A DNA stretch of 64,000 bases from a virus, in the IMG/VR virus record IMGVR_UViG_3300042874_000086, positions 1 through 64,000 of that record. The stretch is one strand, 5' to 3'. Positions 1 to 60,149 of the stretch are shown piece by piece; within the stretch, counting starts at the first letter, position 1, and the number at the start of each line of letters is the position of its first letter. Made by a program: the position numbers and the translations under genes. A model generated the notes under the pieces. That model saw only the letters and a list, made by a program, of their open reading frames with translations. It was not told the DNA's origin and made no database searches.

Positions 1-147
1 AGATGACCATGCAGATGACCATGCCGCTGACCGTGCCGCTGAATCTGCAGCTGAATCTGCCGCTGACCATGCAGATGACCATGCCGCTGACCGTGCCGCT
101 GACCGTGCCGCTGAATCTGCAGCTGACCGTGCCGCTGACCGTGCAGC
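1..147 (-). repeat. 12-bp coding tandem repeat (GCNGCANNNTCA-type)
   Basis: Imperfect 12-bp units run from the window edge to about 147. On the minus strand they encode AARS, AADS, AAWS and SAWS units. Variation sits mainly in the third codon of each unit (CGG, GAT or TGG), so the array keeps reading frame and helix periodicity while changing the exposed residue. Such arrays expand and contract by slippage. Confidence 0.8.
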
Positions 148-456
148 TAATCTAATATCATCATTTCCTGTTTCAAGCCAATCGATAATTAAGTCATAAT
201 TTTCTTCGGAGCAATATGGTTTAATCTTATCAATATTCTGCATTGCACAAAATCTGGCAAACGCACCTATCTCTTCATTGTGCCCTTCTATAGCCCTAAA
301 ACACCAAATTGCGTCTTCGATTCCATTGCTATTTAAAATGGTTAAAAGTGATAGTTCTTCATCGTCTGCCTTAGTTTTTCCAAGTGTTTTTAAAAGCTTT
401 TCCCATCCGTCTCTGCAGGGAGAATGCTCTCTTATTTTATTTAGTGTTGTTTTCAT
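1..456 (-). CDS. Phage hypothetical protein with AAxS tetrapeptide repeats (3' end outside window)
   Basis: The ATG is at 456 and the frame stays open to base 1, so the C-terminus lies outside the window. The visible 152 residues start MKTTLNKIREHSPC, an N-terminus I recognise from a widespread phage protein of unknown function. A conserved W/C/F-containing helical domain follows (about residues 12-95), ending IIDWLETGNDDIRL. From residue 104 the chain becomes an (A/S)-A-(R/D/W)-S tetrapeptide repeat, matching the Ala-rich helical tail of that family. No biochemical role is known. It is the most downstream visible member of the leftward small-gene cluster, and 31 nt separate it from the next gene upstream. 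Confidence 0.8.
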   Translation of the reverse strand, partial: MKTTLNKIREHSPCRDGWEKLLKTLGKTKADDEELSLLTILNSNGIEDAIWCFRAIEGHNEEIGAFARFCAMQNIDKIKPYCSEENYDLIIDWLETGNDDIRLAARSAARSAADSAARSAARSAAWSSAWSAADSAADSAARSAAWSSAWSS

Positions 457-487
457 AAGTAGTCCTTTCCACGTACGTCAAAATCAA

Positions 488-718
488 TTACCCCCGAACT
501 TGAATAACACGTTTAATAATATGCTGCAACCTTGAAGTAATACTGGAGTATTTTTCAAGGTTAAACCATTGTTCTGTGTTATTCTCACGAAACATTTGAG
601 TATTGTATGAATACACAATATAAGTATCCCCATGCCATACAGCATACGCAGAATTTCCTGTGAACACCTGACGATTTTTTATAAGGTCTGGAATTTGTTT
701 ATAATTAACCTGTGCCAT
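488..718 (-). CDS. Small phage protein of unknown function (76 aa)
   Basis: Starts MAQVNYKQIPDLIKNRQVF and has a compact beta-rich look: a short helix with IPDLIKNR, then WHGDTYIVYSYNT and a polar C-terminus. It resembles a common family of small early phage proteins (IxxIPxLIxNRxxFxGN...YVVYSY) with no known function. On the minus strand the ribosome-binding site is AAAGGGG within ATAAAGGGGTTTAAA, the same leader as several neighbours. A 16-bp palindrome sits 21 bp upstream of the start. Confidence 0.8.
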   Translation of the reverse strand: MAQVNYKQIPDLIKNRQVFTGNSAYAVWHGDTYIVYSYNTQMFRENNTEQWFNLEKYSSITSRLQHIIKRVIQVRG

Positions 719-738
719 TTTAAACCCCTTTATTTAAT

Positions 739-754
739 AGTTCCATGTGGAACT
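739..754. promoter_or_regulatory. 16-bp palindromic element, copy 1
   Basis: AGTTCCATGTGGAACT has two 7-bp arms (AGTTCCA/TGGAACT) around a 2-bp centre. It lies between the start of the 76-aa gene and an AT-rich stretch with TATAAT-like sequences. Six such sites occur between 739 and 2863; the regular size and symmetry suggest an operator for a dimeric DNA-binding protein. Confidence 0.6.
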
Positions 755-852
755 TTTTCTATTATTAGAGGGAGTTGAATTTTTCCCTTTAACACCCTAA
801 TTATACCCTATTCAAATAACATTATAACCCCCTTAGGAATTTTGAGAATCCA

Positions 853-1119
853 TTAAAGAGGGGTCTCGAATTTTAAGGTTTCTATAAGAGATTCAAACGG
901 AATTTCAGCGAACCCATAAAACTCATCTTCAACATAATTTGCAATAAAAGACGTGCAACATAAATCAACCTTAAAGTATTCTTGTAAATCCTTTAAAGAC
1001 CAACAACAAATCCCCCAAGAATTGTCTGAATCACCCACTGGACGAGGCGAAAACTTAGCAGTATACTGTATAGCGTCCACCGCAACACTTTCCACAATTT
1101 GATAATACATGTGAACCAC
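853..1119 (-). CDS. Hypothetical protein (88 aa)
   Basis: MVHMYYQIVESVAVDAIQY start, no recognised domain. Rich in aromatic residues and with several cysteines (ICCW, LCC), acidic overall; soluble by appearance. An AAAGGGGTGG-type ribosome-binding site lies just upstream on the minus strand, and palindrome copy 2 is 19 bp upstream of the start. The repeated leader shared with neighbours supports it as a real gene. Function unknown. Confidence 0.7.
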   Translation of the reverse strand: MVHMYYQIVESVAVDAIQYTAKFSPRPVGDSDNSWGICCWSLKDLQEYFKVDLCCTSFIANYVEDEFYGFAEIPFESLIETLKFETPL

Positions 1120-1137
1120 CCCTTTATCACTTTAAAA

Positions 1138-1153
1138 AGTTCCACATAGAACT
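1138..1153. promoter_or_regulatory. 16-bp palindromic element, copy 2
   Basis: AGTTCCACATAGAACT, one mismatch from perfect dyad symmetry. Same spacing class as copy 1: about 20 bp upstream of a leftward start codon, just outside the AAAGGGG ribosome-binding site. Confidence 0.6.
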
Positions 1154-1338
1154 TTTATTACTCTCTAAATCCCCCCAAAAATTCCTTTTAGGTGGGTACT
1201 ATAGTACCTTTTAAGGCACCTTTAAACCCTACATGATTTATTTTCCACTCTCAAAGGTAACTTCAAAGTACTTTCGTATACCGAGGTTACCTTGAAGTTC
1301 CCTTGAAGGACTGTGAACCTCACCATAAAAATTTTTTT

Positions 1339-1354
1339 ATACGGTTTTCCGTAT
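1339..1354. terminator. Hairpin downstream of the 42-aa gene
   Basis: ATACGG-TTTT-CCGTAT forms a 6-bp stem with a 4-nt loop, 7 bp beyond the stop codon of the small leftward gene at 1361. On the minus strand it is followed by an A-run and then a T-run rather than an immediate T-run; on the plus strand GTTTTG follows. A weak terminator or 3'-end stabiliser is plausible. Confidence 0.4.
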
Positions 1355-1360
1355 GTTTTG

Positions 1361-1489
1361 TCAGAACCCTAAGTGGTCGTTTAAGGTTTTTTTAAGGTTA
1401 CCTTCAAATTTGTTTAAGGTTACTAAAATTACCTTTAAAGTTACCATTAAGGTTACTCCAATTATTATCCAAGTTGCTACAAACTCCAT
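1361..1489 (-). CDS. Small single-span membrane protein (42 aa)
   Basis: The ATG is at 1489, preceded on the minus strand by ATAAAGGGGTTTAAA, the same ribosome-binding leader used by neighbouring genes, and the frame ends with TGA at 1361-1363. Residues 3-25 (VATWIIIGVTLMVTLKVILV region) are a continuous hydrophobic helix. The remainder is basic and polar (NKFEGNLKKTLNDHLGF), as in a single-pass inner-membrane peptide with a cytoplasmic tail. Palindrome copy 3 lies 27 bp upstream. Short phage membrane peptides of this kind often inhibit host or competitor functions, but no function can be assigned. The shared leader is the main support. Confidence 0.6.
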   Translation of the reverse strand: MEFVATWIIIGVTLMVTLKVILVTLNKFEGNLKKTLNDHLGF

Positions 1490-1515
1490 TTTAAACCCCT
1501 TTATGTTACCTTAAA

Positions 1516-1531
1516 AGTTCCATGTGGAACT
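1516..1531. promoter_or_regulatory. 16-bp palindromic element, copy 3
   Basis: AGTTCCATGTGGAACT, identical to copy 1. It overlaps the last base of the 78-aa gene and lies 27 bp upstream of the 42-aa membrane protein gene. Confidence 0.6.
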
Positions 1532-1767
1532 TATTTGCTTACCGTGATAGACTTCAACTCTGCCTTTAGGGTACGTGCAAGTTCCCCTCGGTACCCACTA
1601 GCATTACTTAAAAAGCGCAATACGACACTATAAGTCCCATCAAGACCGTAGTCGTCCCTCTCCATCGCTTTAAGGTAAGGTTCAGCATACACTGATACCT
1701 TTTTCCAATCCTTTCTAATTGCTCGAGCGATACGTGCAAAGGCTATTCTTTCTGATATTTCGTTCAT
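1531..1767 (-). CDS. Hypothetical protein (78 aa)
   Basis: Helical basic protein starting MNEISERIAFARIARAIRK, with YAEPYLKAM near the middle and a GELARTLKAELKSI C-terminus. The order IRKDWK...PYLxAM...YG.D...V..FL.NA..YRG..A...KAEL is one I associate with a small phage protein family of unknown function. A perfect sigma70 promoter (1904-1932) reads into it, with palindrome copy 4 in between. Its ribosome-binding site is GGGG in AATGGGGTTAAG. Confidence 0.75.
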   Translation of the reverse strand: MNEISERIAFARIARAIRKDWKKVSVYAEPYLKAMERDDYGLDGTYSVVLRFLSNASGYRGELARTLKAELKSITVSK

Positions 1768-1813
1768 CTTAACCCCATTATCGTTTTGTTATATTTGTCT
1801 TGCAAATTTAGAA

Positions 1814-1829
1814 AGTTCCACATGGAACT
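1814..1829. promoter_or_regulatory. 16-bp palindromic element, copy 4
   Basis: AGTTCCACATGGAACT, the other central orientation of copies 1 and 3. It lies between a consensus sigma70 promoter (-10 at 1904-1909) and the start codon at 1767, so a bound protein would act as a roadblock, or the transcript would carry a 6-bp hairpin. Confidence 0.6.
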
Positions 1830-1903
1830 CTCAAGGAACCTTCTAAATTTTCAGAAGGCACTATAAATCTTTTGTAACCGTATTATTTATATTTGCATAG
1901 CAA

Positions 1904-1932
1904 ATTATAACATAACCTTAAGGAAATGTCAA
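1904..1932 (-). promoter_or_regulatory. Perfect sigma70 promoter, leftward
   Basis: On the minus strand TTGACA (1932-1927) is separated by 17 nt from TATAAT (1909-1904), an exact match to the host consensus. It drives the 78-aa gene and probably the small genes to its left. This strength is typical of phage early promoters. Confidence 0.85.
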
Positions 1933-2000
1933 GGTAACTTATGAGTGACTAAAACTTTCTAAATTTTGTAGAACTTCCTAAAAATTACTAGAAAGCGGAT

Positions 2001-2024
2001 AATGTATAACACATGGTATACATT
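2001..2024. repeat. Inverted repeat, 8-bp arms
   Basis: AATGTATA and TATACATT flank an 8-bp centre, 14 bp from palindrome copy 5. It lies in the 368-bp gap 1768-2135, which holds no gene I can support; apart from this repeat the gap contains the promoter, two palindromes and a hairpin. Confidence 0.5.
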
Positions 2025-2037
2025 ATGTTCCTACAAT

Positions 2038-2053
2038 AGTTCTATATGGAACT
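2038..2053. promoter_or_regulatory. 16-bp palindromic element, copy 5
   Basis: AGTTCTATATGGAACT, one arm mismatch. It is not close to a leftward start codon; it lies about 105 bp upstream of the sigma70 -35 box at 1927-1932. Confidence 0.5.
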
Positions 2054-2082
2054 TTTTTATTCCGTTATAGACGACTAGGAAA

Positions 2083-2099
2083 ACAGAAACGGTTTCTGT
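2083..2099. terminator. Perfect palindrome after the 205-aa gene
   Basis: ACAGAAAC-G-GTTTCTGT, 8-bp arms with a 1-nt centre, 37 bp past the leftward stop codon at 2136; a short TTTT follows on the minus strand. Could be a weak terminator or a protein-binding dyad. Confidence 0.4.
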
Positions 2100-2135
2100 G
2101 ATTAACCGTTATTAACCATCTAGGTATGGTGGGCG

Positions 2136-2753
2136 TTACCCCACCAAATCAAAAAATGAATTTTCGTATGCTAGAATGTGTGCTTCGATTTTGTCTCGCA
2201 TAACATCGGTTAATGTCCCTTTGGTTTCCATCTCTCTTAGTGTCTCTCTCATTAGTGCGACGCTCTCATCAAATAATGTGAGAGTGGGATACTTTGCCGT
2301 ACTGACAACGGCGTTACGTTGTACGTTCAATACTTCGCGAACGTCCTCTACGGTATCCGCTTTAACGTCCTCTACGGTATCCTCTACGGTATCCGCTTTA
2401 ACGTCCTCTACGATACCCGCTACGGTATCCGCTTTAACTGGTGACTTAATCCCTCTTAGATAGTCATACAATTTAACAAAGCCGATTGTATTACAATAGC
2501 TAATGTCTATTTTATCGGCATAAGTGCGTAATATATTAATTGACGCAAACATTTTCTTAATATAACCTTCACTCCACACGTCAGCTAACTGAAGTTTAAT
2601 TTCTTTTAACTCTTCAGTACCGAGCACGGTATCACCGGCTACTGTTAACGCCCACTTAGACCCGCTCATTTCTGTTTTAGAAATCGCTACTGCAATTTTT
2701 TTTGCTTCTGCTACCGCTTTAATAACGTGTTGCGCCGTTGTTGTTGTTTTCAT
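2136..2753 (-). CDS. Hypothetical protein with VEDVKADT repeats (205 aa)
   Basis: MKTTTTAQHVIKAVAEAKK start, mostly helical. Residues about 109-141 hold degenerate repeats of AGIVEDVKADTVEDTVEDV type, encoded by recurring GTCCTCTACGGTATCC blocks on the plus strand; they look like an acidic spacer between an N-terminal domain and a C-terminal helix. No family is recognised. A perfect sigma70 promoter (2796-2824) and palindrome copy 6 lie upstream, and the AAAGGGGTTAAAG leader matches the other early genes, so early expression is likely. Confidence 0.75.
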   Translation of the reverse strand: MKTTTTAQHVIKAVAEAKKIAVAISKTEMSGSKWALTVAGDTVLGTEELKEIKLQLADVWSEGYIKKMFASINILRTYADKIDISYCNTIGFVKLYDYLRGIKSPVKADTVAGIVEDVKADTVEDTVEDVKADTVEDVREVLNVQRNAVVSTAKYPTLTLFDESVALMRETLREMETKGTLTDVMRDKIEAHILAYENSFFDLVG

Positions 2754-2795
2754 CTTTAACCCCTTTATGTTGTTGTTGCTTTTAATTCGAGTGTC

Positions 2796-2824
2796 ATTAT
2801 AGTACGATAAAAAAATAATGTCAA
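2796..2824 (-). promoter_or_regulatory. Perfect sigma70 promoter, leftward
   Basis: On the minus strand TTGACA (2824-2819), 17-nt spacer, TATAAT (2801-2796). It reads into the 205-aa gene at 2753. Palindrome copy 6 lies 24 bp upstream of the -35 box. Confidence 0.85.
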
Positions 2825-2847
2825 GGGCATAACCTCCTTTTATAAAA

Positions 2848-2863
2848 AGTTCTATATGGAACC
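2848..2863. promoter_or_regulatory. 16-bp palindromic element, copy 6
   Basis: AGTTCTATATGGAACC, the most diverged copy (last base and one internal base off symmetry). It lies upstream of the -35 element of the neighbouring sigma70 promoter, a position for an activator or UP-region repressor rather than a downstream roadblock. Confidence 0.5.
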
Positions 2864-3532
2864 CCCTCTATCTTCAATAGTAAAAATAAATACTAACTAA
2901 CAACTTAAAAGATACTTAAATGTAATATAAACGTGACCTTAAGGTGACATCAGTGCTACCTGTGGTTACACTTAAGGTGTGTTTAAGGTTACTTTTATGT
3001 TAAAAGGGGGGAGGTTAAAGTTCCTTTAAGGTTACCAGTCGGCGCACCCAGCAACTCACAAAATACTTTAAAGTTACTACTGGCGACATTATGTCTGCTT
3101 TAAAGGAATCTTTAAAGTTACTACTAGCGACATCGTGTCTGCTTTAAAGTTACCGTTAGGGGAATCTTTAAAGTTACTACTAGCGACATCGTGTCTGCTT
3201 AAAAGTTACCGTTAGGGGAATCTTAAGAGTTACCGTTAGGGGAATCTTAAAAGTTACCGTTAGGGGAATCTTTAAGGGAATCTTAAAAGTTACCGTTAGG
3301 GGAATCTTTAAGGGAATCTTAAAAGTTACCGTTAGGGGAATCTTTAAGGGAATCTTTAAAGTTACTACTAGGGAATCTTTAAAGTTACTACTAGGGAATC
3401 TTTAAGGGAATCTTTAAAGTTACTACTAGGGATATTTAGGGAACCCCCCAAGGGTTATTAAATACCTAAGGGAGCCTTTGAAGTATGCATATGCTTCAAA
3501 AAAAAAAAAAAATTAAAGCAGTCATACTCATT
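2864..3532. repeat. Non-coding region with interleaved short-repeat array
   Basis: No gene is supported in these 669 bases. From about 3062 to 3435 the sequence is built from interleaved units of three types: TTTAAAGTTACTACT followed by GCGACATCGTGTCTGC (three copies, near 3067, 3111 and 3168); TTAAAAGTTACCGTTAGGGG plus AATC (about seven copies); and TTTAAAGTTACTACTAGGG plus AATC (three copies). The shared core is TTTAA(A/G)GTTAC, which also recurs in 1190-1460. The right end has a GAAGTAT-GCAT-ATGCTTC hairpin (3480-3497) followed by 15 A residues (3498-3512). It could be a replication or packaging region, or a slippage-grown spacer. Confidence 0.7.
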
Positions 3533-7040: not shown

Positions 7041-7304
7041 CTATAGTTTATTAAATTTAACTTTAACAGAGCTGGGATATGTAATAAAAGCAATAAGTAA
7101 ACCAGAGGCTGCTGAAATAAGACCCCCCAACCATAAATAAATACCCAACTTAAATCCCGCCCACAAAGAAGCACCTACGGTAATACCTAAACCACCCCAG
7201 CTGTATAAAAAATAACCAAAAGCAGACAGTACAGACACTATCATGGAGATACCTCCAGATAAAATAAGTAACCCCGCTACAAATAATATAGTAAATTTAA
7301 TCAT
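7041..7304 (-). CDS. Small polytopic membrane protein (87 aa)
   Basis: Three hydrophobic segments, roughly residues 3-30, 36-55 and 57-78, separated by glycine-rich turns and ending in basic VKVKFNKL. The ATG at 7304 is chosen because AAGGAG lies 9 nt upstream; an in-frame TTG at 7310 is too close to it. It overlaps the end of the dCMP deaminase gene by 8 bases, so translation is coupled. Role unknown; not close to the lysis genes. Confidence 0.7.
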   Translation of the reverse strand: MIKFTILFVAGLLILSGGISMIVSVLSAFGYFLYSWGGLGITVGASLWAGFKLGIYLWLGGLISAASGLLIAFITYPSSVKVKFNKL

Positions 7305-9527: not shown

Positions 9528-9926
9528 TTAAGATACGCTTACACGGTCTTTATTATGAAGTAATCTGTGACAGTTTGCACAAAGTAACATGCACTTCTCA
9601 ACTTCTTGCATGAATATATGAGGAGAGCGATTACTATTTTTAGATAGGCCGAAAGATTTTAGTTGGGGATTAATATGATGAAAGTCAAATACAACTGAGT
9701 TGGTGCCATCATATTGTAGACCACAATGGTTACATTTACCCCCTAAGTGGAGTATAGCATTATGAGTATTTTCTTTTCTTTTAGTTTTTTGGGAAGAACT
9801 CCTACATTTTCTACAGTAGGGGGAATGGTCTATACGTCCGTTGGGTTGTTTAGTAAAACAGCTTAGAGGGAGTTCCTCTAAACACTTTTTACAGACTTTA
9901 GTACTCACCCTTGACAACTCACACAT
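9528..9926 (-). CDS. HNH endonuclease (free-standing, homing-type)
   Basis: N-terminal zinc ribbon (CKKCLEELP...YCRKC) followed by an HNH nuclease core: CNHCG, FDFHHI, and CANCHRLLHN. This architecture is typical of mobile phage HNH endonucleases. It starts within the last 22 bases of nrdA in another frame and lies directly downstream of that intein-containing gene, a common homing-endonuclease position. It might cut intron- or intein-free nrdA alleles or simply be inserted here. Confidence 0.88.
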   Translation of the reverse strand: MCELSRVSTKVCKKCLEELPLSCFTKQPNGRIDHSPYCRKCRSSSQKTKRKENTHNAILHLGGKCNHCGLQYDGTNSVVFDFHHINPQLKSFGLSKNSNRSPHIFMQEVEKCMLLCANCHRLLHNKDRVSVS

Positions 9927-12625
9927 TCTGACTTATCAATCTTATGCTTCATGGCCTTATTCTGGGATTGTATATAGTACAGCCCATGAATCCACTCATC
10001 TTTAAAGGCTATATCATGAATCCTAGCAATTTCTTCTTCGGTCTCATCTGCAGTAAAGAATAGATTTACTGATTGTCCTTGGTCGACGTTAGGCTGACGG
10101 TGAGAAGCCATTAGCAGGATAGACTCTTGGGGTATTTCAAAGGCAGTCCTAAATATATCTCGCTCGTGTTGAGTAAGCCATCCCTCCCCCTGAACAGACC
10201 CTTGGTCATCTGCTATACGCTTCATAACCTCCTCTGTGTATACCCCACGCTCTTTCATAATGTCTAACAGCACTGGGTTAATTCTATAAACAGTGCCCCC
10301 AGCGGTATCTTGCTCATACACATTAGCGAATACTGGCTGTATTCCCTCACTAACTCCCCACTGGATTACTGATGTGGACTTAGTGGGGGGTAGTGCAAGT
10401 CTATGAGAACAGCGTTCCCCAGTTCCTACCATCCATTCAGGCTCTCCCAACTCTCTTGCAAGTAACCTTGACGCTTCTAAAGTTTGCTCATTTAGCATTT
10501 TGAAAAGCGATTGATTAAACATAATAGATTGTAAATCACCAAACACCCAAGACTTCGTTTGGTAATAGGTAGATTGACCAAGAACTCCCAATCCTTGTGC
10601 ACGGGACTTCTCAGTAAATGCAATAACTCTTTCAAAACCACTTTCTTGTTTTGCTTTAATCAACATATCTGAAATTACTGCGTCTAAAAAGATAGTAGCA
10701 ATCTGTGGTGTTTTAGTACCAACCCACTCATCGTATTTTGCAATATTTAGAGAGGATAACACGCAAGTAAATGAATGATTTTCATCAGACATTAAAGCAA
10801 TCTCTGAACAGTTTCCAGTAAGTACTCCATTAAACATTAATTTATTAACTAAAGGCTCTGTGCCACAATAAGTAGGGGCTGATTTTCCCTCATCCTCAAC
10901 AGACACTACTTGTACAAACTGTCGAGCCTGTCTTTGGTACTCTCTCCTAGTTGGGACAACCCTTGATGTCTGCAACCCTAAGTCTAACAAAGTATTCAAC
11001 TCTGACCCAGCAATTAATAATCTATAAGTTTGTTTTGTCCAATACTGTTTATACTCCCCAGTACCATTATTTGTAGGTAACCAACTATATCCTGCGTCAG
11101 CTCCTTTCGATATAGTACTATGTACCCCCAACTCTTGTAGGAGAAGTAGAACTTCTTTAAGGAATGATAATTCAATACTGGCTACTTGAATACTCTCTGT
11201 TCCATTATTATTAGTCAAAGTACCATCTGCGTCTAAGTACCCAGATACCCATAGCAACCTATCCTCTACACAAAAGCTACTATTAGGGACAAAAAACTTA
11301 TCTTCTAGTATACCCGCAGGGTATTGTAGGTTTAGTATCCTGCCTTCTTTTGAGTAGCTTACGGAGTAAAACCCAGTAAATCTAGATACTAGTGTTTGTT
11401 TGTTATCGTGTAGTGATATCCTTGGTTTATTAGACTTTTTATATACTGTACCATCCCCCGAGTGAAACCCATTTACGTACGCAAGGGGTAACCTACTATT
11501 ACCATGAGTTATAGGCTCTAAAGAGAATTTAATTAGCTTGTCCCCAGGTACCAAGTCAATCGTACGTTTTTCTACCTGTTTACTATAACCGTCCATTATA
11601 TACCACTTATGGTAAGGGGTAGCCTCAATAGTAGTATAGTTACCCAAAGTAACTTTAATAACAGCCTGACATTCTGATGTTTTAAATAAATCAGTTAAAG
11701 ACCACTCTTTTCCATTCCAACACTCCAAAGACTCCCCAACCACTTGTTCAATATTTATATACCCATAGTTTTTTGTAAGAACTTTGGTATCTCCAGTTAC
11801 ACATAAGTTTGAGTGGCGTACTTTAAACCCCCTGTCTTTATACACTTTAGGTGCGTGTCTATTAACCTTATCTAAAAAGAAGAAGTAACCCTTACCTTTA
11901 GTTGCCTTAGTCTTTAACATACGCTCCCAAAGATAGTCAGCGTGGTCTGGGTCTCTATCAAATAAAGTCTCAAACTCATCCGTGATATTCCAACCAATAT
12001 TCCAACCCATATCATCAGCCACTAACTGGTCTACAAGCTCATCAAAGTCATCGTGTAGGGGGTTTAGGTACATACCACAACTTCCTCTACGTGAATTTCC
12101 TTGTGATACGTCCTCCATATCTCTTACTACCCCAGAAGCAAACTGCATGATACCATTTGCAGTCCCCCCTTTTGAAATAGGTGTCCCACGGGAGCGGATA
12201 GGGTCTAAACAAGTAGAGGTTCCGTAACCACGTTGAGTTAGCTGTGCCATCTCTTTTCTAGCTGTATAAAAAGACTCAATAGAGTCTCCAACGTAAGTAC
12301 CAGAGCAACTAATAGGATGTCCTCGGTTATTCCCCATATTTGTTAATACAGGAGTGGAGGGAGATAACCAACCATTCCACATCTCAGTAAAGAAACACTC
12401 CTCCCAACTACTATAACCAAAATCAGAGGGTATATTAAAGGTAGTTAACCCAGCCGCCCTTTTAGCAATACGTGTGTACATATCCTTAGGGGTTTCGGCT
12501 GTATCCAAGTAACTTTGATTAACCAGCATTTGGTAACCAGCTGTAGTCAGCCACTGGGGAGCTAATCCATCTTGTTGTAGTTGTTTTCTTTTATGAGATA
12601 ATCTCTCGTATTTTGTTTTACCCAT
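9905..12625 (-). CDS. nrdA: Ribonucleotide reductase class I alpha subunit with intein
   Basis: Reduces ribonucleotides to deoxyribonucleotides with NrdB. The ATG at 12625 is preferred: AGGAG lies 7 nt upstream and it overlaps the nrdB stop as TAATG. The precursor is 906 aa; residues 275-605 are an intein, leaving a 575-aa mature enzyme without the N-terminal ATP cone of E. coli NrdA. Active-site Cys are visible: C107 (ISCSG), the thiyl-radical Cys in NL-C-SE (C606, first residue after the intein) and C621 (TCVLSSLN). The C-terminal CVSCQG supplies the reducing dithiol. The C-terminus overlaps the HNH gene. Confidence 0.93.
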   Translation of the reverse strand: MGKTKYERLSHKRKQLQQDGLAPQWLTTAGYQMLVNQSYLDTAETPKDMYTRIAKRAAGLTTFNIPSDFGYSSWEECFFTEMWNGWLSPSTPVLTNMGNNRGHPISCSGTYVGDSIESFYTARKEMAQLTQRGYGTSTCLDPIRSRGTPISKGGTANGIMQFASGVVRDMEDVSQGNSRRGSCGMYLNPLHDDFDELVDQLVADDMGWNIGWNITDEFETLFDRDPDHADYLWERMLKTKATKGKGYFFFLDKVNRHAPKVYKDRGFKVRHSNLCVTGDTKVLTKNYGYINIEQVVGESLECWNGKEWSLTDLFKTSECQAVIKVTLGNYTTIEATPYHKWYIMDGYSKQVEKRTIDLVPGDKLIKFSLEPITHGNSRLPLAYVNGFHSGDGTVYKKSNKPRISLHDNKQTLVSRFTGFYSVSYSKEGRILNLQYPAGILEDKFFVPNSSFCVEDRLLWVSGYLDADGTLTNNNGTESIQVASIELSFLKEVLLLLQELGVHSTISKGADAGYSWLPTNNGTGEYKQYWTKQTYRLLIAGSELNTLLDLGLQTSRVVPTRREYQRQARQFVQVVSVEDEGKSAPTYCGTEPLVNKLMFNGVLTGNCSEIALMSDENHSFTCVLSSLNIAKYDEWVGTKTPQIATIFLDAVISDMLIKAKQESGFERVIAFTEKSRAQGLGVLGQSTYYQTKSWVFGDLQSIMFNQSLFKMLNEQTLEASRLLARELGEPEWMVGTGERCSHRLALPPTKSTSVIQWGVSEGIQPVFANVYEQDTAGGTVYRINPVLLDIMKERGVYTEEVMKRIADDQGSVQGEGWLTQHERDIFRTAFEIPQESILLMASHRQPNVDQGQSVNLFFTADETEEEIARIHDIAFKDEWIHGLYYIQSQNKAMKHKIDKSECVSCQG
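10811..11803 (-). mobile_element. Intein with LAGLIDADG-type homing endonuclease in nrdA
   Basis: 331 codons inserted immediately before the thiyl-radical cysteine codon. Block A starts CVTGDTKVLT; a splicing block B appears as TIEATPYHKW (T..H). Two dodecapeptide motifs, YVNGFHSGDGT and WVSGYLDADGT, show an intact LAGLIDADG nuclease domain. The C-terminal junction reads VLTGN then C, so Asn and the +1 Cys are present. The usual penultimate His is Gly, an atypical but tolerated state in some inteins. The exteins join as SNL-CSEIAL, matching the conserved NLCxE motif. Confidence 0.92.
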
Positions 12626-13629
12626 TATTTTACTCCTAGGAAAGGTTTTCTTGAAAATCCATCTAAAGACCACCCACGGCGATACTGGTTAGTACCACTA
12701 GCAAAAAAGTCATGTACTTTAATGGAGTTGGCTCCTTTATAGAACCAATCAGCTATTGGATTTTCTTTTATTTCATATAAAGGCTCCATACCAAGGTCAG
12801 ATAGAACTTGGTTAGCCCTAGACCTAATGAAATTTTTCAACTGAGAAGCAGTTATATCATTAATAGCTGCTTCCCCTGGGAATCCATAGTCAATTACGGA
12901 GTCTTCGTGGGCTACAATCTTCTCTGTTAATTTTCTTACTGCTTTTTCGTGCTCCACTAGGGGGAAACTTCCATATACTGTTGGGTACTCTTCAATATAA
13001 ACATTGTGTAAGTAAGTAGCGAAAACACCATGAATAACTTCATCATTTACTACATAGTCTACACCAGTTAGTGTATTAGGAATCATTTTATGACCATTAG
13101 CTTTAAAAGATTTCAACATAGCAAAATTACTAAATAAGAGTACTTGCTCAATTAAAGCTACGGTAGCTAAAGATAAAGGCTTATCCTTGTCCAAGTTACT
13201 CGTAATTTTGTTTAGGAAGTCTAACTTCTCTTTAAGAACTAATATAGTTTGTTGGTTTTTAGCAGTATCTTCTGGGTCTATATTAAGTACATCCGACATC
13301 TTTTGATAAAAGAAAGCGTGTACAGACTTTTCCATAGCAGCTATTTGTGTGCAAGCCCCGTCAATCTCTGAGTGAGGAAACCAGTTAGCTATACTACTCC
13401 ACACATCTCCTACTTTTTGTTCAATTTCTACAAACAACTGCAGAGTAAGTGTGATTAAGTGATAAGACTCTCTAGACATATTATGACGGTAGTCTTGTAT
13501 ATCATTCTCTACTTTAATTTCTTGAGCAAACCAGTTTATATCCTGTTGTTGTTCCATTAATTCTTTAGCAAATGGGTACAAATATAAACCGAACATACTA
13601 TTTGGAGTCTCTATAGGTAATTTAACCAT
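12625..13629 (-). CDS. nrdB: Ribonucleotide reductase class I beta subunit
   Basis: Radical-generating partner of NrdA. Ferritin-like helices carry carboxylate/His metal ligands: E in WFAQEIKVENDIQDYRH, EKSVHAFFY (Glu/His plus the candidate radical Tyr), and EVIHGVFATYLH. 334 aa fits the family. The stop codon overlaps the nrdA start (TAATG), as expected for equimolar subunits. The spacing in E-KS-V-H differs by one from the usual ExxH, so the exact metal ligands need a structural model. Confidence 0.9.
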   Translation of the reverse strand: MVKLPIETPNSMFGLYLYPFAKELMEQQQDINWFAQEIKVENDIQDYRHNMSRESYHLITLTLQLFVEIEQKVGDVWSSIANWFPHSEIDGACTQIAAMEKSVHAFFYQKMSDVLNIDPEDTAKNQQTILVLKEKLDFLNKITSNLDKDKPLSLATVALIEQVLLFSNFAMLKSFKANGHKMIPNTLTGVDYVVNDEVIHGVFATYLHNVYIEEYPTVYGSFPLVEHEKAVRKLTEKIVAHEDSVIDYGFPGEAAINDITASQLKNFIRSRANQVLSDLGMEPLYEIKENPIADWFYKGANSIKVHDFFASGTNQYRRGWSLDGFSRKPFLGVK

Positions 13630-17635: not shown

Positions 17636-17662
17636 TTTTAATCTCCTGTGTTTCTCTATACT

Positions 17663-17671
17663 ATTATCGTA
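17663..17671 (-). promoter_or_regulatory. TACGATAAT element upstream of the terminase operon
   Basis: Read leftward, TACGATAAT starts 36 nt before the TTG start at 17635. A TAAA lies 14 nt upstream on the same strand, as in FliA/SigD-type promoters (TAAA-N15-GCCGATAA). Candidate promoter for the phage sigma factor at 59580. Confidence 0.55.
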
Positions 17672-17737: not shown

Positions 17738-17797
17738 TAATAATAGGTAAGTTAAGGTTCCTAAAAGGAGTAAACAAGTGATAGGTCTTGGGACAAG
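17738..17797 (+). repeat. 60-bp dispersed direct repeat, copy A
   Basis: 58 of 60 bases match 54002-54061; the differences are at 17746 (G/A) and 17763 (A/C). It includes GGAGTAAACAAGTGATAGG and TCTTGGGACAAG. Both copies lie in divergent intergenic control regions. An in-frame GTG ATA GGT CTT GGG follows GGAG by 7 nt, a possible leader peptide. Confidence 0.85.
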
Positions 17798-17883
17798 GTG
17801 TTTTTGACGTATTTATTATAGTTTATTAGTATATTTTCTACGTCAAAAACACCTTGTCCCAAGACCTATCACTTGTTTACTCC
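17767..17883. repeat. Perfect inverted repeat, 45-bp arms, 27-bp loop
   Basis: Left arm 17767-17811 and right arm 17839-17883 are exact reverse complements with an AT-rich 27-bp spacer. The left arm is the 3' part of the 60-bp dispersed repeat plus GTGTTTTTGACGTA. Any transcript across it would form a 45-bp RNA duplex; as DNA it could extrude a cruciform. It sits between the divergent terminase and head operons. Confidence 0.92.
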
Positions 17884-17884
17884 A

Positions 17885-17913
17885 TTGACTTATTTTAATA
17901 AACCTGCTATAAT
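17885..17913 (+). promoter_or_regulatory. Sigma70 promoter for the head operon
   Basis: TTGACT (17885-17890), 17-nt spacer, TGCTATAAT with an extended -10 (TATAAT at 17908-17913). It starts two bases after the inverted repeat and reads toward the portal gene. A TACGATTAT element follows 20 bp downstream, so host- and phage-sigma promoters appear in series. Confidence 0.8.
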
Positions 17914-17932: not shown

Positions 17933-17941
17933 TACGATTAT
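17933..17941 (+). promoter_or_regulatory. TACGATTAT element upstream of portal
   Basis: TACGATTAT followed after three bases by GTAATAAAT, 36 nt before the portal start codon. The same compound element with the same 36-nt spacing precedes the tape measure gene (26058). Confidence 0.6.
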
Positions 17942-17968
17942 TAAGTAATAAATGAAATTGGAGACCTT

Positions 17969-21883: not shown

Positions 21884-22237
21884 ATGCCAAAAGTAAAATA
21901 TAGTGGTAATGGTATTACTACAATTGGTGTTGACTTCGTAGATGGTGTTGAGTATGACCTATCAGACAAAGCATGTTCATATGTACTTGAAAACTTCCCT
22001 ACTCACTTCTCTGTAGTTGGAAAACAAACTAAGGTTGTTGAGGTTGCACCTAAAGTAGAAGAAGTAACACTCGAAGTTGTTGCTGATGTTGTAGCAGATG
22101 AGCCTGTGCTTATGGAAGTTACTGCGGAAGTTACTGCGGAAGTTACTGCGGAAGTTACTGCGGAAGTTACTGCGGAAGTTACTGCGGAAGTTACTGCGGA
22201 AGTTACTGTAGAAAAACCATCTCGTCGTCGAAGTTAA
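21884..22237 (+). CDS. Small head-region protein with EVTA repeats (117 aa)
   Basis: Residues 1-55 form a compact domain (YSGNGITTIGVDFVDGVEYD then VLENFPTHFSVV) like short proteins found after capsid genes in siphophages. The rest is a Val/Glu-rich repeat with eight EVT(A/V) units and a basic end KPSRRRS. Could be a decoration or head-completion protein; no enzymatic motif. The C-terminal repeat arises from a 12-bp tandem repeat. Confidence 0.65.
   Translation: MPKVKYSGNGITTIGVDFVDGVEYDLSDKACSYVLENFPTHFSVVGKQTKVVEVAPKVEEVTLEVVADVVADEPVLMEVTAEVTAEVTAEVTAEVTAEVTAEVTAEVTVEKPSRRRS
22115..22210 (+). repeat. 12-bp coding tandem repeat (8 units)
   Basis: GAAGTTACTGCG repeated eight times; the last unit differs (GTA for GCG). 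Units are essentially identical at DNA level, indicating recent expansion by slippage; each adds EVTA without disturbing frame. Confidence 0.92.
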
Positions 22238-52733: not shown

Positions 52734-53819
52734 TCAAGTGGGGCCTTTATTATAATTACTTAATAAAAAACCTCCATTTGGTATAGTTAATATAGAAAAA
52801 GCATATTTACTATGTTCAGTTAACTTAAAAGAAGCTTCATCTATAAATTTTAAAGGAGCCTTAATAAGTGTCTTAATATTCTTAAGCTTTTCTATTAGTT
52901 TACTTTTGTATTTTGTAAAAGTATTCTTACTAATCCCCCACATTTCTGCGGCTTTTCTGGAGGTAATCTTAGTAACGGAGTATAAAGGAGCAAGGTTAGA
53001 ACATACTTTATTGTACAATTCATCAAACTTTTTATCAGCCTGACGTTGGGCAACTCTTTGGTTAAACTGAATAGTACGTTCAGAAGTTTTATAATTACCC
53101 TTACGGTACTTAGTAGCCATGAAAGTATTGATAGAATGTGCTATTTTAAGCACCTCTGAGTGTCCTAGTGGCTTACTAAATATACTATTTTTTGCCAATA
53201 GGTCATTAGTAATATTGACAGTGCCAGTAGTGTATGCAAAAGCACTTCCATACTGGAATAAGGTACTATTACGTTCCCCCTCAGGAATTTTATTGAAGTC
53301 AATAAAAAGTTGTTGAGCATATTTACTTCCTCCTACGGATTTTTTAAGCTCTACCTCGTATTCAGGTAGAATAAATTCAGAAAAACGTACTACTTTTTCT
53401 GAAAAAACTGATGTGTGTTTTAGTGGGTTTCTCCAAATACGCCCGGAGGCCCCGGTAGTTGCATTAATATCTGCCCCAAACAACCCCTGAAGATAACGAA
53501 TAATGTGTTTTAATTTATTTAATTGTTTTATATTTGATGTTTTAATAGGGTTATCCAAGAACCAGTGAATATGTGTACCCTTCTGTGTTTCAACAATAAA
53601 AGTAGGCTCTGGTAGATTATTATCGGATATAACTTTTAGTACATCTGACTTAAAATCTATGTCAATAGATACTGCAGGGATAAAAAATTTATTACCAAAT
53701 CTTAAAAAGTTTTCTTCTAAGGCTTCCTCAAGGACTAAAAATTTATAATTGTCACCTTTATTAGGCGAACACTGTACTTTAAAGTATGAATCAAGTTTTT
53801 CTAGTAAAAGTCTCTTCAC
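52734..53819 (-). CDS. ColE2-like replicase/primase with C-terminal helix-turn-helix
   Basis: AEP-type primase core: VSIDIDF (IDID metal motif near residue 70), KGTHIHWFL (HxH), and SGRIWRNPLKH, the RNPxH run of ColE2-type Rep (PF03090 family). The C-terminal third has a helix-turn-helix (AEMWGISKNTFTKYKSKL). Such Rep proteins bind their origin and make the leading-strand primer. GTG 53819 is chosen: AAGGAG lies 6 nt upstream; an ATG seven codons earlier has no ribosome-binding site. Directly upstream are a TACGATAAT element and the candidate origin. Confidence 0.75.
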   Translation of the reverse strand: MKRLLLEKLDSYFKVQCSPNKGDNYKFLVLEEALEENFLRFGNKFFIPAVSIDIDFKSDVLKVISDNNLPEPTFIVETQKGTHIHWFLDNPIKTSNIKQLNKLKHIIRYLQGLFGADINATTGASGRIWRNPLKHTSVFSEKVVRFSEFILPEYEVELKKSVGGSKYAQQLFIDFNKIPEGERNSTLFQYGSAFAYTTGTVNITNDLLAKNSIFSKPLGHSEVLKIAHSINTFMATKYRKGNYKTSERTIQFNQRVAQRQADKKFDELYNKVCSNLAPLYSVTKITSRKAAEMWGISKNTFTKYKSKLIEKLKNIKTLIKAPLKFIDEASFKLTEHSKYAFSILTIPNGGFLLSNYNKGPT

Positions 53820-53841
53820 ATTATTCTCCTTGTGCCTCATT

Positions 53842-53850
53842 ATTATCGTA
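53842..53850 (-). promoter_or_regulatory. TACGATAAT element upstream of replicase
   Basis: Read leftward, TACGATAAT begins 31 nt before the GTG at 53819. A TACGATATT lies close by on the plus strand (53858-53866). Confidence 0.45.
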
Positions 53851-53887: not shown

Positions 53888-53955
53888 TTAATATATACTA
53901 TATTATGTATTAAAGCAGTTTTAAGTACGTTAATACATAATATAGTATATATTAA
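53888..53955. repeat. Perfect inverted repeat, 26-bp arms, 16-bp centre (candidate origin)
   Basis: Arms 53888-53913 and 53930-53955 are exact reverse complements and almost pure A+T; the centre is AGCAGTTTTAAGTACG. It lies in the 306-bp divergent gap between the ColE2-like replicase and flap exonuclease genes, a natural place for a replication origin with easily melted DNA. Confidence 0.9.
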
Positions 53956-54001: not shown

Positions 54002-54061
54002 TAATAATAAGTAAGTTAAGGTTCCTCAAAGGAGTAAACAAGTGATAGGTCTTGGGACAAG
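54002..54061 (+). repeat. 60-bp dispersed direct repeat, copy B
   Basis: Matches 17738-17797 at 58 of 60 positions. Unlike copy A, it has no mirrored partner. It is preceded by TATAAT (53997-54002) and points toward the exonuclease gene; GGAG then GTG ATA GGT CTT could encode a 13-aa leader. Confidence 0.88.
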
Positions 54062-57920: not shown

Positions 57921-59583
57921 GACACTAAAAGTATCTAACTATTACTCAATAGGGGAGGTAGAGTTATCCCTTCAAAAAGGTTTACATTACATAGTTGGAA
58001 TAAATAAAGACATAGAGACTATCTCGGTAGCTTCTAATGGTGCTGGTAAAACTGCTATATTTTCTGCTATATACCAAGGATTATTTAATAAGAATATTAA
58101 GAACCCTAAAGGTGTTATTGAATCTGTAAATAATTCTGTGACTGGAAAGCCCTATAGTGTAGAGATAACATTTAGTAAAGAAGGGGACGCAGATTATAAG
58201 ATTACCAACGATAGGAACAACAATAAAATAACCATTGAGCGCAACTCAAAAGAGATTCAAGTAAAGGGTATAGCAAACCAGCTTAAACAAATAAAAGATA
58301 TTATTGGATTAGATTTCGAGACCTTTTCTGCTTTAACTTACATAAGCCAAAGTACTTTACAAGCTATTTTAGATACCACCAATAAGGATAATATTCTTTA
58401 CCAGTTCTTTAATGTGGAAACTATACATAAAGCTGAAGGTTTACTTAAAGATGAGCGTAAGGAGCTTAAAAATACTAGAAACTTATTAATAGCTAGATTA
58501 AGAGGTGCTGAGAAGAATTTATCTATATTGACGGGTTTTGAGAGAGTAGACCTTGACGAGCTTGAGAGTAACCTTAAGATTTTGACCGAGTCTTTACTAT
58601 CCCTTACTAAAGATAAAAGACACATACAAGTAAAGATGTTGTCTCAACAGACTTATAAACTTAGGGAAGAGAAAGCAGTCTTAAACGCTGAGGGTATTGG
58701 ACTAAAAGTACAGTTTGACCACCTACAAAAACAGCAAGAACTTTTATCTCAGAAAATTTGCCCCGTGTGTGGGTCTGATACCGAGGGAATGGACTTACAT
58801 TTCCTAGACGAACTTATTACTTTAGAGAAAGCTATGGATGGGCTACGGGAGGAACTCCGAGAAAAATCTGAATATTTAAAAATGTTAGAAGGTAAATTAA
58901 CTGGTTTTGAGGATAGCTTAAGGGATGATGAAAATTCTATAGTTACTAAAATAAATCAAGTTAAATCAAAAATTCTAGTAGTATCAGAACAAAATTCACA
59001 GTATGAAAAGATTAAGTTTCAAAAACAAGAAATAGAGTCTGATATAGCTAGTATTTATTCCGATATGGGTAGCCTGGATAAAAAATTAGGTGCTATAGAA
59101 CAGTGTATTAACCTAATTAAAAATGGAGCACTTGTTAATGAATACCTTAATAAGTTTAGGAAGGTATTTGTATCAGTTTTAAAAGAACTTATGCAGAAAA
59201 CTGACTTCGGTATTACTATAAATGTGTCCGTATCTTCTGGTAAGTTATCTTACAGATTTTTTGACCGAGGTATCGAGAAGGGGTTCAATGATTTGTCTGC
59301 TGGGGAAAAGACCAGAGTATCCCTTGTGTTGTTAATTTCAACAATTTTTACTCTAGAAAAAGTAACTGGTTTTTCTAGTAACTATTTAGTTATTGATGAG
59401 ATGTTGGGAGTGCTAGATGAGGAGGGTATTGAGATGATTAAAAAGTTTCTTGAGATTATTCGTCAAGATAAAGCAGTATACTTAATAACACATCACAATG
59501 AGATACCTATAGAATTTTTTGATTCTACTATTACCTTCATAAAAGAAAAGGGTATAACCAGCTTACAAAAGGATGTTAAATGA
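57907..59583 (+). CDS. SbcC/gp46-like recombination ATPase
   Basis: Rad50/SMC type. Walker A SNGAGKT at 43-49, coiled coil, zinc hook CPVC near 285, coiled coil, signature motif LSAGEKTRVSL near 466 and Walker B YLVIDEMLGVLD near 495. 558 aa equals T4 gp46 length. Partner of the SbcD-like subunit. Overlaps the sigma-factor gene by ATGA. Confidence 0.92.
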   Translation: MLEIKTLKVSNYYSIGEVELSLQKGLHYIVGINKDIETISVASNGAGKTAIFSAIYQGLFNKNIKNPKGVIESVNNSVTGKPYSVEITFSKEGDADYKITNDRNNNKITIERNSKEIQVKGIANQLKQIKDIIGLDFETFSALTYISQSTLQAILDTTNKDNILYQFFNVETIHKAEGLLKDERKELKNTRNLLIARLRGAEKNLSILTGFERVDLDELESNLKILTESLLSLTKDKRHIQVKMLSQQTYKLREEKAVLNAEGIGLKVQFDHLQKQQELLSQKICPVCGSDTEGMDLHFLDELITLEKAMDGLREELREKSEYLKMLEGKLTGFEDSLRDDENSIVTKINQVKSKILVVSEQNSQYEKIKFQKQEIESDIASIYSDMGSLDKKLGAIEQCINLIKNGALVNEYLNKFRKVFVSVLKELMQKTDFGITINVSVSSGKLSYRFFDRGIEKGFNDLSAGEKTRVSLVLLISTIFTLEKVTGFSSNYLVIDEMLGVLDEEGIEMIKKFLEIIRQDKAVYLITHHNEIPIEFFDSTITFIKEKGITSLQKDVK

Positions 59584-60149
59584 CCGCGGATATACCTAAA
59601 GATGATTATGAGTTTGTACAGAAGATTGCTTATAAGTACTTTCTACGAAGTAACTACTACGTAGAGTTGGATGATTTAGTCCAAGAGGGTATGTTAGCTT
59701 ATATCAAAGAGCGTGAGAAGTATGATGAGACTCGTAATAATTTCTTTATGGGCTACGCTTATTTAAGGGTAAGTGGAGCTATTAAAGACTACATAGGTAA
59801 AAACTCACCCAGAGGTGGGGCTACTGTACGCCCCAATTCTTCGGTAGTTAATAAAGAGGTTTATAATTTTTCCTCTATAGGATTAGACGAGAATGACTTT
59901 GAGGACACTTTCTCTCTTACTGTTGAAGATGAAATAGTTAAACAACAATACTTTGAGGAATTCTATAGGTACTTAGGGACTTTAACTAACCTAGAAACGA
60001 GGGTATTATATGAGTATTTTATTCTCCAAAATTCGGTTGTAAAAATATCTGAACGAGTTAAAATGAGTAGGATAAAACTTAAAAAGATACTAAATGCCTG
60101 CTTATACCACATGAAGAGTTACTTTCAAATAGACGATTATATAGTATAA
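59580..60149 (+). CDS. Sigma-70 family RNA polymerase sigma factor
   Basis: 189 aa with region 2 (LDDLVQEGMLAYIKEREKYD, then FFMGYAYLRVSGAIKDYIG), the arrangement of FliA/SigB-type alternative sigma factors, and region 4 helix-turn-helix (LTNLETRVLYEYFILQNSVV, KISERVKMSRIKLKKIL). Region 1 is absent and the region 3 linker is short. It would redirect host RNA polymerase, probably to late genes; TACGAT(A/T)AT elements upstream of late genes are candidate targets. Coupled to sbcC-like by ATGA. Confidence 0.85.
   Translation: MTADIPKDDYEFVQKIAYKYFLRSNYYVELDDLVQEGMLAYIKEREKYDETRNNFFMGYAYLRVSGAIKDYIGKNSPRGGATVRPNSSVVNKEVYNFSSIGLDENDFEDTFSLTVEDEIVKQQYFEEFYRYLGTLTNLETRVLYEYFILQNSVVKISERVKMSRIKLKKILNACLYHMKSYFQIDDYIV

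Follow-up and report, generated by a model that had tools for sequence, protein, structure and literature searches.

The origin of a ColE2-type plasmid lies downstream of rep or within the 3' end of that gene. It is marked by CAGATAA repeats, alpha and beta sites and an AGA primer site, and the pairing of Rep and origin is plasmid specific. No known origins are smaller than those of ColE2 class C replicons, whose Rep, a primase, both binds and unwinds them (PMC5304414, PMC4538821). The short primer made by Rep is extended by DNA polymerase I (PMC4538821). RepA proteins related to ColE2 Rep are built from the same three parts (PMC3632715). In RSF1010, ssiA and ssiB are two short recognition sites for the plasmid AEP primase RepB' (PMC4538821). 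Here, these systems are compared with a short repeated element of a tailed phage, one copy of which adjoins a gene for a Rep of the ColE2 type.

The window, that is, the whole 64,000-nucleotide stretch of DNA analyzed, corresponds to positions 1 to 64,000 of an 89,672-bp virus record in IMG/VR (G000). The record encodes portal, capsid, tape measure, and TerL proteins, a 5'-3' exonuclease and a family A DNA polymerase, as well as a DnaG-like primase, RNR, SbcCD, and rIIA/rIIB. Given the portal, capsid, tape measure, TerL, replication, and rIIA/rIIB genes, G000 is a tailed phage and probably a lytic one. Its TerL is T5-like (26%), and positions 1 to 3047 recur at 86626 to 89672 as a direct terminal repeat of 3,047 bp with one mismatch. 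Relatives were collected by a TerL-based search, which yielded seven close IMG/VR contigs with TerL identities of 72 to 80%: two long contigs (G005 and G007) and five fragments (G001 to G004 and G006). Several of these contigs end near or in the region matching the terminal repeat. In the simplest interpretation, the genome is linear and bears a direct terminal repeat of about 3 kb, in a manner comparable to T5. The GC skew of G000 tracks gene direction and is uninformative on replication forks.

A preliminary description of this DNA had reported a 60-bp element at two places, and the match between positions 17738 to 17797 (S1+) and 54002 to 54061 (S2), both on the plus strand, was as claimed, at 58 of 60 bases; the surrounding 114 bp are 81% identical. 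S1+ has the leftward terS operon on one side and the rightward portal gene on the other. S2 is flanked in the same manner, with rep running leftward and the 5'-3' exonuclease gene running rightward. Extending the search to the full genome and its relatives, as had been suggested, added two copies outside the window in the same record, S3 (78177 to 78233, minus strand) and S4 (84002 to 84049, plus strand). It also defined a core of about 28 to 31 bp, asymmetric and noncoding, that is conserved in the seven related contigs. The core of S1+, at about 17767 to 17796 on the plus strand, reads GGAGTAAACAAGTGATAGGTCTTGGGACAA. In the window, the 27-bp core has 3 matches, compared with none in 100 shuffles. 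The perfect inverted repeat reported at S1 was also reproduced: a left arm of exactly 45 bp (17767 to 17811, plus strand), a spacer or loop of 27 bp (17812 to 17838) and a right arm (17839 to 17883, minus strand) that matches the left without a single mismatch. The right arm, S1-, is an inverted copy of the element. Because it lacks the upstream part of about 29 bp that S1+, S2, and S3 possess, S1- is a truncated secondary copy produced by local head-to-head duplication, and the suggestion of recent copying applies to this arm. A strong sigma-70-like promoter (TTGACT-17-TATAAT; 17885 to 17913, plus strand), directed toward portal, abuts it. A second long AT-rich palindrome, with 33-bp arms that are 91% identical, lies between rep and S2 (53888 to 53955); it was not seen in G005 or G007.

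At the terS/portal junction, the element is found in G005, G006, and G007, the last of which has a tandem pair spaced by 58 bp, and G001 to G004 carry a five-base variant (the AAACC variant site). The remaining copies of G005 and G007 occupy the same junctions in the same orientation as those of G000. The copy between rep and the exonuclease gene keeps its junction and orientation in all three genomes, and the copy just upstream of rIIA points away from rIIA and is antisense to both neighboring genes in each of them. Three junctions (terS/portal, rep/exonuclease, and upstream of rIIA) are universal, with all copies in the same genome direction. A further copy, after the rIIAB block, is present in two of the three genomes (G000 and G005) and faces opposite to the others. 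The copy number per genome is 3 to 5. Whereas proteins flanking the sites are mostly 40 to 74% identical, the 15-bp heart of the element, ATAGGTCTTRGGACA, is almost unchanged, and the alignment of the core is gapless across copies except for a 1-bp indel in G007. Selection, which had been offered as the other explanation for the similarity of the copies, is borne out by this retention of the same sites despite diverged proteins. Each phage has one site variant that is common to its copies, as expected of coevolution with a trans-acting factor. Conserved positions, a gapless core, and one variant per phage together imply that the core is under selection and that it has a trans-acting partner differing between phages.

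In IMG/VR, the element is confined to this group. A degenerate pattern scan of 2.9 million viral contigs in IMG/VR returned seven stretches, all of this clade, and the exact core had no match beyond the clade in IMG/VR, GTDB, or phages. A 16-mer gave 36 matches in GTDB, one per contig, against about 120 expected by chance, with no signal of CRISPR-repeat mimicry. A second conserved motif, AAAATAGG, was noticed downstream of several copies, often between CC and GG (loci L007, positions 7045 to 7100, L048, L049, L053, L058, and L060). Its distance from the core is exactly 35 bp in G005 and G006 and 45 bp at S3 and S4 of G000, so that the two spacings differ by roughly one turn of the helix.

The gene adjoining S2 (52734 to 53840, minus strand) encodes a Rep with the architecture of a ColE2-type initiator-primase, comprising AEP/Replicase, PriCT-1, and a C-terminal helix-turn-helix. 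PriCT_1 (PF08708) scored above its cutoff, and Replicase (PF03090) fell just under threshold, at 24.2 bits against a cutoff of 26. A plasmid replication initiation protein of ColE2 type was matched by tblastn at 2e-8. Alignment with five ColE2-type plasmid Reps by hhalign covered 266 columns, near full length and with the C-terminal helix-turn-helix included, at an E value of 5.5e-16. The AlphaFold model of Rep is of low confidence (pLDDT 52.6) and adds weak support only. Its top Foldseek matches in the PDB include Prim-Pol domains and the origin-binding domain of ColE2-P9 Rep; the latter (3vw4) gave the best probability, 0.84, and no match reached an E value below 0.001. Judged by these comparisons, the phage Rep is a full-length homologue of ColE2-type plasmid replication proteins, with the predicted helix-turn-helix included. 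In each of the three genomes with a rep gene (G000, G005, and G007), a copy of the element adjoins it. In G000 that copy, S2, lies 161 bp upstream of the rep start, and the other copies are far away.

The likeness to a ColE2-type replicon goes beyond the shared Replicase, PriCT-1, and helix-turn-helix parts. The phage core, at 28 to 31 bp, is asymmetric and of the size of an origin. Plasmids matched by the phage Rep carry repeats of 28 to 35 bp just downstream of rep, in tandem and 59 to 60 bp apart, close to the 58 bp that separate the tandem copies of G007. The plasmid-specific pairing of Rep and origin also has a counterpart in the phage-specific site variants. The differences concern setting and sequence: here the host of the module is not a plasmid but a tailed phage whose terminal repeats are long, it has four or five dispersed sites instead of one locus, and S2 is upstream of rep, whereas the plasmid origin is downstream of rep or inside its 3' end. 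Comparison of the element with the origin-like repeats of four ColE2-type plasmids gave no significant alignment, its position weight matrix and alignment did not match the plasmid origins or a Paenibacillus plasmid, and CAGATAA is absent from it. Because origin sequence similarity was not found and the position relative to rep differs, we propose by analogy that the element works like a ColE2 origin and do not claim membership in that origin family. The ssiA and ssiB sites of RSF1010, short sites read by a plasmid AEP primase, resemble the element as it is interpreted here, but the phage Rep matches the ColE2 type.

Dispersed origins read by Rep are proposed on the basis of the Rep homology, the biology of ColE2 origins and the length and spacing of the plasmid repeats, which are near those of the tandem copies in G007. 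Our leading explanation, which we regard as about as likely as not, takes the element for a dispersed origin resembling that of ColE2, or for a priming site bound by Rep, duplicated head to head at S1. We put forward more tentatively that the phage replicates from several such origins of about 30 bp by means of a ColE2-type Rep, with one of them doubled so that forks leave both ways. Rep, the proposed trans-acting factor, would use its C-terminal helix-turn-helix domain to recognize the 28- to 31-bp core, and it would then open the core and synthesize a short RNA primer. The family A DNA polymerase of the phage would extend that primer in one direction, in parallel with the extension of ColE2 primers by DNA polymerase I, and the 5'-3' exonuclease encoded next to S2 (PF02739; 54126 to 55037, plus strand) could possibly remove it. 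If each copy is unidirectional, the inverted pair at S1 would constitute a locally bidirectional origin. The preliminary description had listed a replication signal among several possible roles. This one is favored because the gene for a ColE2-type Rep adjoins the element; binding, unwinding, and priming by Rep are steps that we infer, as is the effect of the inverted pair. The DnaG-like primase that the phage also encodes counts against the Rep-origin reading, and Rep and element were seen together in three genomes only. For most lytic phages, no origin is known. If the proposal is true, a whole phage group would have origins that are minimal and portable and that depend on one initiator protein, the origins would be mapped to the base pair, and a plasmid replication module would run a virus of roughly 90 kb from several places.

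An operator or upstream activator is an unlikely but credible alternative. A phage regulator would bind the core and switch the adjacent divergent operons, as in the case of the mycobacteriophage stoperators or other intergenic repeats. Every site is at an operon or gene junction, divergent genes flank two of the three universal sites, and the site variants are lineage specific, all of which suits this explanation. Mycobacteriophage intergenic repeats (stoperators, SAS, and the 17-bp repeat of Cluster O) are likewise multicopy motifs specific to a phage group. However, a core of about 30 bp without symmetry does not resemble the dyads to which dimeric regulators bind. The 17-bp repeat of Cluster O phages is such a dyad (PMC4351075), and it is palindromic and occurs more than 30 times per genome, in contrast to the 3 to 5 asymmetric copies described here. 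Furthermore, no constant distance from the element to promoters was seen, and no candidate regulator adjoins the sites.

It is improbable that the element is a middle promoter for an RNA polymerase modified or encoded by the phage, with antisense RNA from the rIIA-side copy silencing the right-end genes. Like T7-type promoters, it is asymmetric, about 25 to 30 bp long, multicopy, and lineage specific. A search for a single-subunit RNA polymerase (PF00940) was silent, although it was silent in controls too, and at one of the conserved sites the element runs antisense to the genes on either side. The motif probably used by a phage sigma factor is a different sequence, ACGATWATW. It occurs genome-wide about 20 to 40 nucleotides before start codons and precedes many late genes (for example, 17670-, 17934+, 23848+, 26059+, 41036+, 44191+, and 53849-), and it is probably the late promoter of a phage sigma-like factor. 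The Sigma70_r2 protein encoded at 59580 to 60149 (plus strand) is its likely reader. Around the two element loci, the late motif is found as ACGATTATT before portal (17934 to 17942, plus strand), where it differs from the element, and as ACGATAATA toward terS (17662 to 17670, minus strand) and toward rep (53841 to 53849, minus strand). The element as a promoter for the late sigma factor was rejected, given that this motif sits elsewhere.

Concerning S1 itself, the right arm at 17839 to 17883 might be an assembly artifact, so that the single element alone would be real. The inverted arm is known from one metagenomic assembly only. Nevertheless, the sequence is unique on both sides of it, the strong promoter directly abuts it, and G007 has independently acquired a tandem duplicate at this locus; an artifact is therefore doubtful.

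A strand-specific nick site, cut late in infection as in the DNA of T5, phiKMV-like phages and phage tf, is very unlikely. The known sites resemble the element in being few, conserved in position, variable among lineages, mostly on one strand, and present in phages with direct terminal repeats. The T5-like terminase (26%), the long terminal repeats, and the three universal copies on one strand agree with this interpretation, and so does the variation of the nick consensus among related phages (PMC3517423). In phage tf and its relatives, nick sites are on one strand only (PMC3517423), but in G000 two copies, S3 and S1-, are on the opposite strand. Moreover, the known sites have a far shorter consensus, of 7 to 18 bp (PMC3517423). 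A role at DNA ends, raised earlier for the inverted repeat, is also unlikely: the record ends in the 3-kb direct terminal repeat, which is elsewhere.

A structured RNA, acting as a leader, antiterminator or terminator, with a double-stranded RNA hairpin at S1, is the least probable explanation, since stems are rare, Rfam is empty at the gathering score, and the copy beside rIIA lies antisense to its genes. At S1 the predicted hairpin is highly stable (-89 kcal/mol, compared with -29.8 ± 3.5 for shuffled sequences; z = -17), an outer stem of 10 bp occurs in G005_ii and one of 9 bp in G002_i, and some copies have a downstream hairpin. However, 11 of the 13 copies either lack the outer stem or have one that does not exceed chance, and conserved, covarying secondary structure across copies was not found. 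Below the Rfam gathering score, matches were nearly all to miRNA-type hairpins. The leader RNA and double-stranded RNA decoy suggested earlier are disfavored by this lack of conserved structure and by the site that is antisense to both neighbors in three genomes. The same is true for a simple bidirectional terminator, as a search for a GC stem-loop followed by a U-tract found none at S1 or S2. The core in G000 also reads as a Shine-Dalgarno sequence followed by GTG (MIGLGT...), with an IKPxKIG-like tail common to S3 and S4; this mini-ORF was rejected, as the relatives have no start codon. A tblastn search with it returned nothing convincing, and the element is noncoding.

Several further features of the phage genome were recorded. 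The family A DNA polymerase gene is split in two (L006:745-5327; G000 64745 to 69327), and two endonuclease-like ORFs, one of them HNH/I-HmuI-like, lie between the halves; the split is probably due to self-splicing introns. In the window, the gene for the large subunit of ribonucleotide reductase (9905 to 12673) is broken by what is probably an intein containing a LAGLIDADG domain. A tRNA-Arg (CCT) gene is located at L006 11370 to 11446. Repeated, operator-like palindromes resembling GTTCCAYRTGGAAC occur near the genome ends (window positions 735 to 772, 1120 to 1157, and 1805 to 1834, and L007 near 6985). Tandem repeats with a 12-bp period are present at window positions 1 to 168, 3056 to 3457, and 22060 to 22233, some of them apparently within coding sequence.
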